From the NCBI RefSeq assembly GCF_003336425.1, contig NZ_QEIO01000034.1, positions 1 through 42,635 of the forward strand: 42,635 bases of DNA, given 5' to 3'. Position numbers and translations under genes: made by a program. The stretch comes from Marinitenerispora sediminis (GTDB lineage Bacteria; Actinomycetota; Actinomycetes; Streptosporangiales; Streptosporangiaceae). This document shows positions 3,603-42,635 of the stretch, piece after piece; the first letter of the stretch is position 1, and each line of letters opens with the position of its first letter. The notes beneath the pieces were generated by a model. It saw only the letters and a list, made by a program, of their open reading frames with translations, searched no databases and was not told the origin of the DNA.

Positions 3603-5035
3603 TGGCTGACAATCCCATTCGCACCCGATTCGCTCCGTCCCCGACCGGCATGTTCCACGTCGGCGGTGCGCGCTCCGCGCTGTTCAACTGGGCTCTCGCG
3701 CGCCAGCAACCCGAGGGCAGGCTCGTGCTGCGCGTCGAGGACACCGACGCCGCGCGCAACCGGCCCGAGTGGACCGAGGGGATCATCCGCGCGCTGGCGT
3801 GGCTCGGGATCAGCGAGGCCGACCCGCACTTCGAGGGCCCCTACTTCCAGTCGGCCTACGCGGCCAAGCACCGCGAGACCAGCGAGCGGCTGTACAAGGA
3901 CGGCCGCGCGTACTTCTGCGACTGCACCCGCGAGCAGGTGCAGGAGCGGCGCGGCAACCCGCACCTGGGCTACGACGGGTTCTGCCGCGACCGCGGTCTG
4001 GAGCCGGCACCGGGGCGGGCGCTGCGGTTCCGGGTGCCCGAGGGCGGTCCCACGGTGGTGGACGACCAGATCCGCGGCCGGGTGGAGTTCGAGCACAGCG
4101 CGATCGAGGACTTCGTGATCGCGCGCGGTGACGGGTCGCCGCTGTTCGTGCTGGCCAACGTGGTCGACGACATCGAGATGCGCATCACCCACGTCATCCG
4201 GGGCGAGGAGCACCTGTCCAACACCCCCAAGCAGCAGCTGCTGTGGGAGGCGCTGGGGCAGACGCCGCCGGTCTGGGCGCACCTGCCGGTCATCGTCAAC
4301 GAGAAGCGGCAGAAGCTCTCCAAGCGCCGGGACAAGGTGGCGCTGGAGTCCTACCAGGACGAGGGCTACCTGCCCGAGGCCATGGTCAACTACCTGATGC
4401 TGCTCGGCTGGGCGCCGGGCGGCGACCGGGAGATCATGCCCTGGGCGGAGATGGAGCCGCTGTTCCGCGTCTCCGACGTCAACAGCTCCAGCGCGTTCTT
4501 CGACGAGAAGAAGCTGCGCGCGTTCAACGGCGAGTACATCCGGGCGCTCCCGGTCGAGGAGTTCGCGGAGCGCTGCCGGCCGTGGCTGCGTCCGGAGACC
4601 GCGCCGTGGCCGGCGGAGAACTTCGACCCCGAGGTGTTCGCGGCGGTGGCCCCGCTCGCGCAGAGCCGCATCGCGGTGCTGAGCGAGATCGTGCCCAACG
4701 TCGACTTCCTGTTCCTGGACCGGCCGGTCGAGGACCCGCAGAGCTGGAGCAAGGCCATGAAGCCCGGCGTGGGGCGCGAGATGCTCGCCGCCGCGCTGGC
4801 GCGGTTCGACGACCCTGCCCTGCCCTGGGAGGCGGCGGCGCTCAAGACCGCCCTGGAGGAGGTCGGTGCCGCGCAGGGGCTCAAGCTGGGCAAGGCGCAG
4901 GCCCCGGTGCGGGTGGCGGTCACCGGGCGCACGGTGGGGCTGCCGCTGTTCGAGTCGCTGGAGCTGCTGGGGCGGGACCGCGTCCTGGACCGGCTGCGCG
5001 ACGCGCTCGCGAAGCTGGACGCCGCCGAGGAATGA
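3602..5035 (+). CDS. gltX: glutamyl-tRNA synthetase
   Basis: This 477-residue class I aminoacyl-tRNA synthetase charges tRNA-Glu with glutamate. In organisms without GlnRS it also mischarges tRNA-Gln for later amidation. The HIGH motif appears as FHVGG within [12 protein letters not shown] near the N-terminus. The KMSKS motif is KLSKRR at about residue 240. [12 protein letters not shown], typical of the family, precedes it. An anticodon-binding helical domain follows, to the end. I prefer the GTG at 3602 over the TTG at 3596 because of the leaderless promoter spacing. The tRNA-Gln and both tRNA-Glu genes lie directly downstream, a functionally sensible arrangement. Confidence in the product is very high; the exact start is less certain. 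Confidence 0.97.
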
Positions 5036-9374: not shown

Positions 9375-9965
9375 ATGGAGAAGTTCACCGTCCACACCGG
9401 CCGCGCCGTGCCGCTGCGCCACAGCAACGTGGACACCGACCAGATCATCCCCGCCGTCTACCTGAAGCGGGTGGCCCGCACTGGCTTCGAGGACGGCCTG
9501 TTCGCCGCCTGGCGGGCCGCCGACCCCGACTTCGTCCTCAACCGGCCGGAGTACGCCGGCGGCACCGTCCTGGTCGCCGGCCCGGACTTCGGTACCGGCT
9601 CCTCCCGCGAGCACGCGGTGTGGGCGCTGCAGGACTACGGCTTCAAGGCGGTCATCGCCCCGCGCTTCGCCGACATCTTCCGCGGCAACTCGCTCAAGGG
9701 CGGCCTGCTCACCGTGCTGCTCCCGCAGGACGTCGTCGAGCGGCTGTGGGCCCTGGTCGAGGCTGACCCCTCGACCGAGGTCACGGTGGACCTGGTGGCC
9801 CGCGAGGTCCGCGCGCCGGGAGTCACCGAGCCGTTCGAGCTGGACGACTACACGCGCTGGCGGCTGATGGAGGGGCTGGACGACATCGCCCTGACGCTGC
9901 GGCACACCGACGCCATCGCTGACTACGAGACCCGACGCAAGCCGTGGCTCCCGGTGACGCAATAG
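9375..9965 (+). CDS. leuD: 3-isopropylmalate dehydratase, small subunit
   Basis: The 196-residue swivel-domain subunit pairs with LeuC. It has the usual N-terminal [10 protein letters not shown] (about 16-25) and the substrate-binding loop [14 protein letters not shown] (about 75-88). [11 protein letters not shown] is also typical. The ATG at 9375 follows GGGAG and TAGGAA motifs. It lies 53 bases after leuC. Its last 22 bases overlap the predicted start of a small downstream gene, suggesting translational coupling of that gene to the leucine operon. Confidence 0.97.
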
Positions 9966-10192
9966 GGCCGGATCGCCCGGAGCAGCCGGAATTTTACCTG
10001 GATTTGGCACGGCGGCTCCGGGAGGCGCATCGCCGTGCCAACGCGCTCCCGGATGCTGTCCGGATTCCGGTAATCCGTAGGCTTTTGACGGTCACCGAAG
10101 CGGTGAAGCGGGACCCCCTCCGGGCCTCCGAACGGCTCGATCGGATGCTCCAGGACCTCCCTCCGGGGCCCGAAGGGCCCTCGACACGCTGA
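9944..10192 (+). CDS. small unknown protein coupled to leuD
   Basis: This open frame of 82 residues starts at a GTG at 9944 inside the end of leuD and ends before the hup promoter. The segment from about residue 16 to 70 reads as an amphipathic, highly charged helical protein, for example [18 protein letters not shown] and [20 protein letters not shown]. It has no signal, Cys or metal motif. Codon use looks actinobacterial but with more A/T-containing codons than its neighbours (TTT TAC, GAT TTG, AAG). The ribosome binding site is weak, so translation may depend on termination at leuD. The final codons form GGGCCC-gaa-GGGCCC, which may also work as a terminator. I do not recognise the family. 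Confidence 0.6.
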
Positions 10193-10210
10193 TTTCTCAG
10201 GCGTTTGTAT

Positions 10211-10240
10211 TTGTATCGAGGGCCTGACGTCCCCTAATTT
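10211..10240 (+). promoter_or_regulatory. promoter of the HU gene
   Basis: TTGTAT (10211-10216) and TAATTT (10235-10240) are separated by 18 bases, and the start point would fall about 25 bases before the ATG of hup. The region is notably AT-rich for this genome. Confidence 0.6.
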
Positions 10241-10270
10241 CGTGCGAGCAAGGGGGAACCGGAGGAACCA

Positions 10271-10552
10271 ATGAACAAGCGTGACCTGATTGACGCGATC
10301 TCCGACCGGTTGGGGGACAAGAAAACCGCCACCGAAGCAGTGAACGCTGTGTTGGAGACCGTGCAGCGCACCGTCGCCAAGGGCGAGAAGGTGGCCATCA
10401 CTGGGTTCGGCGTCTTCGAGAAGTCCGAGCGCGCCGCCCGTACCGCCCGCAACCCGGCCACCGGGGCCACCATCGACGTTCCGGCGAGCTTCGTCCCGAA
10501 GTTCCGCGCCGGCGCCGACTTCAAGGCCCTGGTGAACGGCGAGAAGAAGTAA
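10271..10552 (+). CDS. hup: HU-family nucleoid-associated protein
   Basis: This 93-residue protein is a short HU, without the long Lys/Ala-rich tail of HupB-type proteins. It starts MNKRDLIDAISDRLGDKKTA, has the dimer-forming helices, GFGVFEKSERAART (about 46-59) and the DNA-binding arm RNPATGATIDVPAS with the minor-groove proline at about 65. HU dimers bend and compact DNA. The ATG at 10271 follows a strong GGAGGAA site. The promoter directly upstream makes it independent of leuCD. Confidence 0.95.
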   Translation: MNKRDLIDAISDRLGDKKTATEAVNAVLETVQRTVAKGEKVAITGFGVFEKSERAARTARNPATGATIDVPASFVPKFRAGADFKALVNGEKK

Positions 10553-33248: not shown

Positions 33249-33803
33249 GTGGTCGACACCCGGCCGCTGGGCCGCCGCCCCGGTTCCATGCGGACCGAGC
33301 AGCGGATCGTGCCCAACCCCGGCGCGCTCGCCGTCGGGATGACCGGTGTGCCGGAGAACGGGGAGATCGAGCTCGACCTCCGGCTGGAAGCGGTCATGGA
33401 GGGCGTCCTCGTCACGGGCCGTGCGCGGACCCGCATGGAGGGCGAGTGCGCGCGCTGCCTGGACCCTCTCGCCGAGCAGGTCGAGGCCGAGTTCCAGGAG
33501 CTCTTCCGGTACCCCCTGGACGACGAGATCGGCGGGGTCGCGGCCGGGGTGGAAGCTGACGCGGAGTCCGAGGATGAGGACTACTATCTTGAGGGCGATC
33601 TGATCGACCTTGAGCAGGTGGTCCGCGACGCCGTCGTGCTCGCGCTGCCCCTCTCGCCGCTCTGCCGGGACGACTGTCCGGGACTGTGCATCGAGTGCGG
33701 CGCGAAACTGGCGGAGGCCGGCCCCGATCACGGTCACGATGACCGCGTCGACCCCCGGTGGGAGGCGCTACGGACGCTGGGCGAGGAGCCTGGCGGCCGA
33801 TGA
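33249..33803 (+). CDS. DUF177 (YceD-like) protein; start uncertain
   Basis: At least 184 residues are encoded from the GTG at 33249. The protein has the YceD/DUF177 pattern: LGRRPGSMR near the start, ECARCLDPL in the middle and PLCRDDCPGLCIECGAKL near the end, giving several Cys in CxxC-like pairs. An acidic stretch (DAESEDEDYY) precedes the C-terminal motif. Members are linked to 23S rRNA accumulation in E. coli and plants and nearly always precede rpmF. In frame upstream of the GTG, the residues SRLDARSPL continue the family N-terminus, but no ATG, GTG or TTG is found there; a CTG at 33219 is the nearest candidate. Translation may therefore start upstream of the reported GTG. Confidence 0.9.
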   Translation: MVDTRPLGRRPGSMRTEQRIVPNPGALAVGMTGVPENGEIELDLRLEAVMEGVLVTGRARTRMEGECARCLDPLAEQVEAEFQELFRYPLDDEIGGVAAGVEADAESEDEDYYLEGDLIDLEQVVRDAVVLALPLSPLCRDDCPGLCIECGAKLAEAGPDHGHDDRVDPRWEALRTLGEEPGGR

Positions 33804-33826
33804 GTTCGTGTTCCCGAACCGGGCTG

Positions 33827-33950
33827 GGTTCCCCGTTGCGGCGGGGATGACCACCGCGCCCCCTCGCGGGGCGGTTCCCAGGAGCATGGCGCCCCGCAGC
33901 CGCGGGGGTGACCCGAGAAAGTGAGCTCCCGCGACCGCGGGGGTGACCCA
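33827..33950 (+). repeat. three CRISPR-repeat-like hairpin segments in the rpmF leader
   Basis: Segments at about 33827-33853, 33888-33915 and 33923-33950 share the pattern CCCCGC-n-GCGGGG(A/G)TGA(A/C)CC with the CRISPR repeat at the right end of the window. The middle one matches it at 22 of 27 positions when aligned without gaps (33889-33915); the first matches 17 of 24, the third 18 of 27. The TGA of the first and second segments are exactly 61 bases apart, the period of the array; the third is 35 further. They lie between DUF177 and rpmF. They could be relics of an array, regulatory RNA hairpins or both. Confidence 0.6.
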
Positions 33951-33961
33951 GGAGGATTGAA

Positions 33962-34138
33962 GTGGCCGTCCCGAAGCGGAAGATGTCGCGGAGCAACACC
34001 CGCACCCGCCGTTCCCAGTGGAAGGCGTCGCGCCCGGTGCTGGTCAACTGCCCGCGGTGCCGTGACCCGAAGCTCCCGCACGTCGCGTGCCCCACGTGCG
34101 GCACCTACAACAACCGCCAGGTCATCAACCCGGCGTAA
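33962..34138 (+). CDS. rpmF: 50S ribosomal protein L32, zinc-ribbon form
   Basis: This 58-residue gene begins at the GTG at 33962 after a strong AGGAGGA site and ends with TAA. It reads [20 protein letters not shown], then [20 protein letters not shown] and a C-terminal [18 protein letters not shown]. The two CxxC pairs (CPRC and CPTC) form a zinc ribbon, so this is the C+ form. L32 is a small large-subunit protein near the exit-tunnel region. It follows DUF177 and precedes rnc, a conserved trio. A terminator follows immediately, so rnc needs its own promoter or read-through. Its leader carries the CRISPR-like hairpins. Confidence 0.97.
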
Positions 34139-34390: not shown

Positions 34391-35125
34391 GTGGCCACCC
34401 AGCTCTCCGCAGCCGAGGCCCGCGAGTTCCATCGCGCGATCGGGGTCGAACTGGACCCGAAGGTCCTGGTGCGCGCGCTGACCCACCGCTCCTACGCCTA
34501 CGAGAAGGGCGGCCTGCCCACCAACGAGCGCCTGGAGTTCCTCGGCGACTCCGTGCTCGGGCTGGTCGTGACCGACACCCTGTTCCGCGAGCACCCGGAC
34601 CTCCCCGAGGGGCAGCTGGCGAAGCTGCGGGCCGCCGTCGTGAACATGCGGGCGCTCGCCGACGTCGCGCGCGGCCTGGGCATCGGCCGCTACATCCGGC
34701 TCGGCCGCGGCGAGGAGGGCACCGGGGGCCGCGACAAGTCCTCCATCCTGGCCGACACGCTGGAGGCGATCATCGGCGCGGTCTACCTCGACCGCGGCCT
34801 GGCCGAGGCCTCCGAGCTGGTGCACCGGCTGTTCGATCCGCTGATCGCCACGGCGTCCGGACTCGGCGCCGGCCTGGACTGGAAGACCTCGCTGCAGGAG
34901 CTCACCGCCTCCGAGCTCCTCGGGGTCCCGGAGTACCACGTGGACGAGAGCGGCCCCGACCACCAGAAGACGTTCCGGGCCACGGTGCGGGTCGCCGGCC
35001 AGAGCTACGGCTCCGGCGAGGGCCGCAGCAAGAAGGAGGCCGAGCAGCAGGCGGCCGAGTCGGCTTGGAAAGCCATCCGCGCCCAGGCCGAGGCCGGCCG
35101 GCAGCAGGCCGGCGAGGGGGCGTAG
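34391..35125 (+). CDS. rnc: ribonuclease III
   Basis: The 244-residue enzyme cuts double-stranded RNA in rRNA maturation and regulation. The catalytic signature [14 protein letters not shown] (45-58, with Glu46 and Asp53) is present, followed by [18 protein letters not shown] carrying the other metal ligands. A C-terminal double-stranded RNA-binding domain (about 160-230) has [18 protein letters not shown] and [18 protein letters not shown]. The GTG at 34391 fits the family; GAGAGGGATG lies 10-12 bases upstream, a rather long spacing. mutM starts seven bases after its stop, so the two are cotranscribed. Confidence 0.95.
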
Positions 35126-41196: not shown

Positions 41197-42635
41197 CCAA
41201 GCCCCGCAGGCGCGGGGATGAACCGTTTCGTGCATGCAGCGCACGATACACGTGCACCCAAGCCCCGCAGGCGCGGGGATGAACCGCTGGGCTTGGATCC
41301 GGTCCACTTGGTCGCGAGCCAAGCCCCGCAGGCGCGGGGATGAACCGCAGCCCACCGCGATGCTCGTCGCGAGGGCGACCCAAGCCCCGCAGGCGCGGGG
41401 ATGAACCAGCGGCCCCAACAGAGACCGCTCCCTACACCGGCCAAGCCCCGCAGGCGCGGGGATGAACCGGTCGCCCACGTCGTGGTGTCGCCGGAGCGAC
41501 GCCAAGCCCCGCAGGCGCGGGGATGAACCGTCCGTGGCGAATCGCGGCGTGCCGGGCCGCGTCCAAGCCCCGCAGGCGCGGGGATGAACCGACCGTGGCC
41601 CGCATGTACGGCACGCCGGCCATCCAAGCCCCGCAGGCGCGGGGATGAACCGAGTCCGGCGGCCGTGGAGACCCGACGAACCGACCAAGCCCCGCAGGCG
41701 CGGGGATGAACCGTCGTGCGGGGCGCTGGTCGCGTAGTCGCCGAGCCAAGCCCCGCAGGCGCGGGGATGAACCCCGGACCTGCGGGTCCGGGCCTACGTC
41801 CAGTTCCCAAGCCCCGCAGGCGCGGGGATGAACCGCTCCCGGTCCGCGCGCTCGGCCATGACCCGCTCCAAGCCCCGCAGGCGCGGGGATGAACCGTACC
41901 TCGTCGGCGTAGGCGCTCGACTGGTTGTCCAAGCCCCGCAGGCGCGGGGATGAACCGCTGGTCGGCTGGCACTCGGCCGTCAGCGTCGACCAAGCCCCGC
42001 AGGCGCGGGGATGAACCGCACTACATCAACGAGACCTACATGTTCGGTCGCCAAGCCCCGCAGGCGCGGGGATGAACCGGGGTTGACGACCTCAGGGTCG
42101 GTGGCCAGAGTCCAAGCCCCGCAGGCGCGGGGATGAACCGAGGTCGCCCGGGGTGAACTCCATGCCGGACAGCCAAGCCCCGCAGGCGCGGGGATGAACC
42201 GGGATGGGGCGTCACCCTGCATGACGCCCTTTCCCAAGCCCCGCAGGCGCGGGGATGAACCGCAGTGGAACGGCGGCATCCCGCCCCGCACGGACCAAGC
42301 CCCGCAGGCGCGGGGATGAACCGCGCGCCGCCTACGTCCGCAAAACCATCGAGAACCAAGCCCCGCAGGCGCGGGGATGAACCGCTGTTCAGAGGAATCC
42401 GTCGACTTAGGGAGCCCCAAGCCCCGCAGGCGCGGGGATGAACCGGATCTCCACCGAGCTGGCGAGCGGGATCGGGGCCAAGCCCCGCAGGCGCGGGGAT
42501 GAACCGTCCGTGATGGCCGTCGACATCCTCCGCAAGGCCCAAGCCCCGCAGGCGCGGGGATGAACCGGACTTCTCGACGGGCGGCCCCGACGGCGGCCTC
42601 CAAGCCCCGCAGGCGCGGGGATGAACCGACCGCGT
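41197..42635 (+). CRISPR. type I-E style CRISPR array, 24 repeats, runs off the window
   Basis: A 28-base repeat starts with CCAAGCCCCGC and ends with GCGGGGATGAACC, and contains a hairpin. It occurs 24 times from 41197 to 42600 with an invariant 61-base period. I see no mismatch in any copy. There are 23 complete 33-base spacers and eight bases of a 24th. If the following base is counted, the repeat is 29 and the spacer 32, as usual for type I-E; that base is G after 22 repeats, A after repeat 4 and C after repeat 10. The plus strand is the crRNA sense, giving an 8-base handle ATGAACCG. The leader is thus on the smc side and the oldest spacers are beyond the right edge. No degenerate terminal repeat and no cas gene is in view. 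Confidence 0.98.

Follow-up and report, generated by a model that had tools for sequence, protein, structure and literature searches.

Three GC-rich hairpins precede rpmF, the gene for ribosomal protein L32, in Marinitenerispora sediminis, and they resemble the repeats of a type I-E CRISPR array of the same contig. Are they remains or targets of the CRISPR machinery, or an element of the rpmF mRNA itself? The original prediction for this DNA (positions 1 to 42,635 of contig NZ_QEIO01000034.1, analysed as a whole and called the window below) had offered three options, namely relics of a lost mini-array, hairpins that Cas6e could process, and an RNA element controlling rpmF. The relevant features of the window are the following.

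33249 to 33803, plus strand: DUF177 (YceD-like) gene, adjoining the leader on its 5' side, with a C-terminus shorter than in outgroup DUF177
33804 to 33961, plus strand: DUF177-rpmF leader, 158 nt
33831 to 33852, plus strand: hairpin HP1, CCCCGT-TGCG-GCGGGG followed by ATGACC
33891 to 33914, plus strand: hairpin HP2, CCCCGC-AGCC-GCGGGG followed by GTGACCC, resembling a type I-E repeat
33925 to 33949, plus strand: hairpin HP3, GCTCCCGC-GACC-GCGGGGGT followed by GACCC, directly 5' of the Shine-Dalgarno (SD) sequence
33946 to 33960, plus strand: ACCCAGGAGGATTGA, remnant of the last codons of the ancestral DUF177 (TQED*), now holding the rpmF SD
33962 to 34138, plus strand: rpmF, ribosomal protein L32, GTG start, 58 aa
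34148 to 34172, plus strand: terminator-like hairpin 3' of rpmF
34391 to 35125, plus strand: rnc (RNase III), the gene after rpmF, named from its sequence
41197 to 42628, plus strand: type I-E CRISPR array, repeat CCAAGCCCCGCAGGCGCGGGGATGAACCG, period 61, used as comparison

All three hairpin segments are present as predicted. The stems of HP1 and HP2 start at 33831 and 33892, respectively, which confirms the 61-base spacing claimed for the window, while HP3 follows HP2 at a distance of ~34 nt and ends 5 nt before the SD, directly 5' of the rpmF ribosome binding site (RBS). The DUF177-rpmF region yielded no sigma-70-like promoter. Sites comparable to the terminator-like hairpin between rpmF and rnc occur in 11 of 30 relatives, suggesting that rpmF is often transcribed separately from rnc.

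To place the leader in the family, we gathered DUF177-rpmF junctions from ~70 genomes of the GTDB family to which the window belongs. A leader with HP2, HP3 and the RBS is syntenic in 39 Nocardiopsaceae-type genomes from 15 genera, where the gap between DUF177 and rpmF varies from 72 to 250 nt; the closest named relative carrying it is Marinactinospora thermotolerans, and in one locus (L036) HP2 is degenerate. The final 75 nt of these 39 leaders align throughout, comprising HP2, a short link, HP3, TGACCC, AGGAGGATTGAA, and the GTG start. HP3 is almost invariant over the 15 genera. HP1 is detectable only in the genera closest to the window, and its spacing from HP2 is 60 nt in Marinactinospora and 57–59 nt in the L015 locus, that is, three genera in all including the window. 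The leader is not present in 29 other genomes of the family, in which the DUF177 stop codon is at most 34 nt, and mostly 1 nt, from rpmF. In two further loci (L039 of G018 and L057 of G062) there is a gap between the genes, and the HP2/HP3 element was not found in it.

The leader was also built into a covariance model (R2), which yielded one match per Nocardiopsaceae genome, situated at rpmF, the remaining matches being mainly CRISPR arrays. When 297 genomes were searched, the model retrieved rpmF leaders 17 times, along with six other matches, all weak: four lie in type I-E arrays, a fifth covers the start of rpmF in a different family, and the sixth has no evident context. Besides CRISPR arrays, no further copies of the leader were found in Nocardiopsaceae genomes, save for a second equal-scoring match in one Nocardiopsis, G209 (C54:78054 and C57:55579), which would mean that the contig is duplicated or that rpmF has a second locus. 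Judging from alignment and synteny, this is a real, clade-specific and previously undescribed leader of a ribosomal-protein gene, limited to Nocardiopsaceae-type genomes. With HP2 and HP3 conserved in 15 genera, we rejected the possibility that the element is decayed mini-array debris, and the first of the three original options does not describe its present state.

The leader matches no family of Rfam 15 at the gathering score. We therefore rejected its assignment to a known Rfam family; matches to the CRISPR-DR families are far below the threshold even for the true array. In being a conserved structured RNA directly 5' of the start of a ribosomal-protein gene and restricted to one clade, it is similar to the leaders of ribosomal-protein mRNAs (PMC7247131). 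The actinobacterial cases listed there are those of L31 and L17, and not of L32 alone, and the rpmF leader differs from them in having no known protein ligand.

The junctions also indicate how the leader may have arisen. The outgroup DUF177 ends in xQEG* directly 5' of rpmF (in L054, ...ETQEG*, encoded by ACCCAGGAGGGCTGA), and the final 15 nt of the leader, ACCCAGGAGGATTGA, are homologous, in frame, to these last codons. Therefore, the leader is sequence gained within the old 3' end of DUF177; the DUF177 stop codon now comes earlier, and stop-start coupling is broken. Having placed the gain by DUF177 similarity and the state of the junction, we infer an insertion in the ancestor of the group, in which ~100–200 nt of hairpin-bearing sequence would have come between the DUF177 body and its last five codons. 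With the early stop, the stop-start coupling on which rpmF translation in relatives appears to rely is no longer available to this group, and the old DUF177 codons remain as the rpmF RBS. The CRISPR-like TGACCC flank of HP3 is largely inherited DUF177 coding sequence. We also considered an upstream ORF or leader peptide that stops at the old TGA or at AAGTGA, and rejected it: such frames are present in some leaders, but neither the frames nor the starts are conserved, and there are 1-nt indels in the HP3 loops.

Support for RNA structure comes from base changes in the sequence-only alignment, where four of the seven HP2 pairs show changes on both sides. In HP2 and HP3 together there are 15 such changes versus 5.0 in shuffles, and 0 of 500 shuffles reach as many, although these shuffles ignore kinship; sliding the pairing partner lowers the pairing from 87% to 48–73%. 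HP3 is conserved with almost no covariation, as it barely varies. Run on the sequence alignment, RNAalifold missed HP2 and recovered HP3 only in part; an additional pairing that it proposed, between the invariant GACCCA and the start of rpmF, would fold around the SD, in a stretch where the alignment lacks variation. In the window, GACCCA at 33945–33950 can base-pair with UGG..GUC at 33963–33970, where rpmF starts, enclosing the SD. The fold of the window leader is no more stable than its own shuffles (z −0.27). A merged long stem of HP2 and HP3 was rejected as the conserved fold, being the minimum-energy structure in only 18 of 38 leaders, the window among them.

How far do the hairpins resemble type I-E repeats? 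HP2 (33891–33917) matches the repeat of the local array at 22 of 27 positions (81%) without gaps, as originally reported, and at 22 of 29 when aligned over 29 nt. Another 22/29 match to the repeat is found elsewhere in the window on the minus strand (~3779–3807); as such matches arise by chance, the HP2 alignment alone is weak evidence, and the argument depends on the comparison of genomes. From 14 type I-E repeats of the same family we built a covariance model (R1), which was run on 138 kb of DUF177-rpmF loci. Nearly all top matches fall in the leader, on the mRNA strand, with E-values of 8e-7 (L019), 1.6e-6 (L026), 3.6e-6 (L029) and 1.2e-4 (window HP2); the L019 (GTGTTCCCCGCGAACGCGGGGATGACCG) and L026 (GTGTTTCCCGCGCATGCGGGGATGTACCG) hairpins score 28–30 bits. 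As tandem GC hairpins mostly occur in arrays, we applied a stricter test, comparing the flank match to any type I-E repeat with that of 800 background hairpins of equal stem and loop size. Given a GC hairpin, the flank p-values are 0.015 for the window HP2 and 0.004 for L015, L026 and L029 (HP2 range 0.004–0.055), 0.055 for HP1, and 0.44 for HP3; a PWM version of the test gave 4e-4 to 0.03. By this measure HP2 is modestly more repeat-like than expected by chance, and only in the sense orientation; HP3 is not.

The original prediction had also proposed to align the gap across the clade and to compare it with each genome's own repeats. The alignment extends over 39 genomes, as described above, but the leader is not significantly closer to the repeats of its own genome than to those of other genomes (p 0.06, 28 genomes), and we rejected coevolution of the two on these grounds. 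The best match of the window HP2 is the array of its own genome. Nor do HP1, HP2 and HP3 behave as repeats in register with constant spacers, the HP2-HP3 distance being ~34 nt everywhere.

Many solitary type I-E repeats or groups of one to three copies lie outside the main arrays in the window genome (G000: C333, C114, C247, C401, C106, C301, C399, C136; L181–L189) and, likewise, in G147 (L156–L162). Several of them share a CRISPR-leader-like end, CCCAGGTCAAYGAGA, directly 5' of the first repeat. The scatter of solitary and two-copy repeats makes an old landing of repeats at the DUF177-rpmF junction conceivable. Type I-E repeats and solitary repeat units (Racrs, PMC10651486) share with the leader a 6-bp GC hairpin with a tetraloop, and HP2 has the GTGTT...ATGACC flanks in the sense orientation. 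The leader differs from them in the spacing of HP2 and HP3, which are not in spacer-repeat register, in being kept without type I-E genes, in its fixed position 5' of a core gene, and in the HP3 flanks, which are not repeat-like. A very old type I-E repeat origin of HP2 is possible but unproven by these alignments; the likeness itself reflects either a common hairpin form combined with chance or a vestige of the element's ancestry, and not a current function.

The last point follows from genomes without the machinery. Each of the 40 Nocardiopsis genomes has a match to PF08798, but for 13 the sole full match is a divergent orphan (one of the 13, G134, also holds a 66-residue PF08798 fragment), and G147, from another genus, has no match. 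Cas7e (PF09344) was not found in these 14 genomes, while the positive controls were. The leader is intact in all 14 genomes lacking canonical cas6e and cas7e, and the leaders of Nocardiopsis with and without type I-E genes are only a few bases apart. Conservation without type I-E was what the original prediction itself had named as speaking against a CRISPR link; a functional link is thereby left unsupported, and dependence on Cas6e is refuted. Since the hairpins persist in strains without CRISPR machinery, they most likely act on the rpmF mRNA independently of it. G147 (L154–L163) carries type I-E repeats and mini-arrays, yet neither cas6e nor cas7e was detected there.

The orphan Cas6e-like protein, of ~188 aa, was found by profile search in all 40 Nocardiopsis genomes and, among the genomes searched, in no other genus. 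Three of its loci are the following.

L147, 9690 to 10256 (G165): orphan Cas6e-like protein
L146, 2486 to 3058 (G088): orphan Cas6e-like protein
L148, ~9650 to 10300, minus strand (G134): orphan Cas6e-like protein

Where examined, the gene is located away from cas genes; in G165 it sits between genes for threonine dehydratase and a P-type ATPase. The protein scores 66–69 bits against PF08798 (cut-off 25), and the top Foldseek matches of its structure model, which is of moderate confidence (pLDDT 70), are Cas6e structures (E 9e-10). It has glycine at the position of the conserved catalytic histidine (MG[KR]AV versus MHAAV in canonical Cas6e of these genomes). It is possibly a domesticated, non-cutting Cas6e. 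As it is found only in Nocardiopsis, we rejected it as a general partner of the leader.

Several explanations of the leader have to be weighed against these data. One of them derives HP2, and perhaps HP1 and HP3, from type I-E repeats, which the ancestor of Nocardiopsaceae would have received between DUF177 and rpmF and retained as the leader of the mRNA. The repeat-like flanks on the sense strand only, the appearance of type I-E arrays in four genomes as secondary matches of the leader model, the dispersed repeats of the window genome and G147, and the HP1-HP2 spacing of 57–61 nt all agree with such an exaptation. Still, the flank matches are modest once a GC hairpin is given, the HP2-HP3 distance is not a repeat-spacer unit, the 3' flank of HP3 is old DUF177 code, and neither a CRISPR leader nor a trace of a spacer was seen; moreover, tandem GC hairpins are so rare outside arrays that the leader model would match arrays anyway. 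We consider this origin rather unlikely, and slightly less likely the fuller scenario in which the captured repeats were domesticated as the rpmF leader and kept in some strains without CRISPR-Cas, where the His-less Nocardiopsis orphan might still bind the hairpins. Among the rival present-day functions, the likelihood falls from feedback by L32 through cleavage by RNase III to processing by Cas6e. Cas6e would cut at the base of HP2 or HP3 and so mature or destroy the rpmF mRNA; the geometry and orientation of the hairpins are those of a crRNA repeat and cas6e is common in the clade, but the intact leaders of the 14 genomes described above, the near identity of leaders in Nocardiopsis with and without type I-E, and the non-significant similarity to own repeats make this highly improbable.

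Under autoregulation, excess L32 would bind HP3 and the SD and block initiation. The position of HP3 beside the SD, the invariant GACCCAGGAGG, the possible GACCCA/UGG-GUC pairing around the SD, and the frequent clade specificity of ribosomal-protein leaders (PMC7247131) are consistent with this. Yet coding also explains the invariance of the start region, the Rfam matches of the leader include no L32 leader, and PMC7247131 lists none for Actinobacteria besides the Corynebacteriaceae L31 leader with rpmE, rpmF, so we regard autoregulation as doubtful. More doubtful still is a merged HP2-HP3 stem cut by RNase III to control its own operon, in the manner of AbsB in S. coelicolor. Here, rnc lies downstream of rpmF, and AbsB cleaves the polycistronic mRNA that encodes it, both inside rnc and upstream of this gene (Xu et al., 2008, as reported in PMC10126417), and the merged stem is favoured in 18 leaders; but it is not favoured in the other 20, the HP2 changes compensate inside HP2, and a terminator-like site parts rpmF from rnc in several genera.

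The explanation that we prefer, with slightly better than even confidence, is that the leader is a Nocardiopsaceae-specific 5' structure of the mRNA that takes the place of coupling and protects rpmF against degradation from the 5' side. Within the mRNA, the tandem hairpins HP2 and HP3 would form a 5' structural barrier and a boundary for processing, and RNase J, which degrades RNA in the 5'-to-3' direction, would be kept away from rpmF and from any transcript reading through into rnc. The leader would also permit rpmF expression separate from DUF177, and two stable hairpins just 5' of the SD would, as their simplest role, mark the 5' side of the rpmF mRNA and keep the RBS in a defined context. 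The part given to RNase J is carried over from Streptomyces: in S. venezuelae, RNase J directly targets the transcripts of vnz_26030 (hypothetical), vnz_26035 (L32) and vnz_26040 (rnc), as described in PMC12096830, and vnz_26030 is, by its position, probably DUF177. Both this case and that of AbsB place the same operon under post-transcriptional control by RNases; they concern the operon, and it is at this level that the likeness to the Nocardiopsaceae leader is drawn. Of the three original options, the third, in which an RNA element controls rpmF, agrees best with a leader that is conserved, syntenic and structured, the regulatory role being the conjectural part.

The leader provides an example of a stop-start-coupled ribosomal-protein gene that apparently gained its own structured leader through an event truncating the C-terminus of the upstream gene, in an operon (DUF177-rpmF-rnc) on which RNases are already known to act in Streptomyces. 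Should the hairpins descend from CRISPR repeats, the leader would offer a rare instance of repeat RNA converted into a housekeeping regulatory element. In the Nocardiopsis strains without type I-E, any function of the leader must be CRISPR-independent, which makes the question testable.
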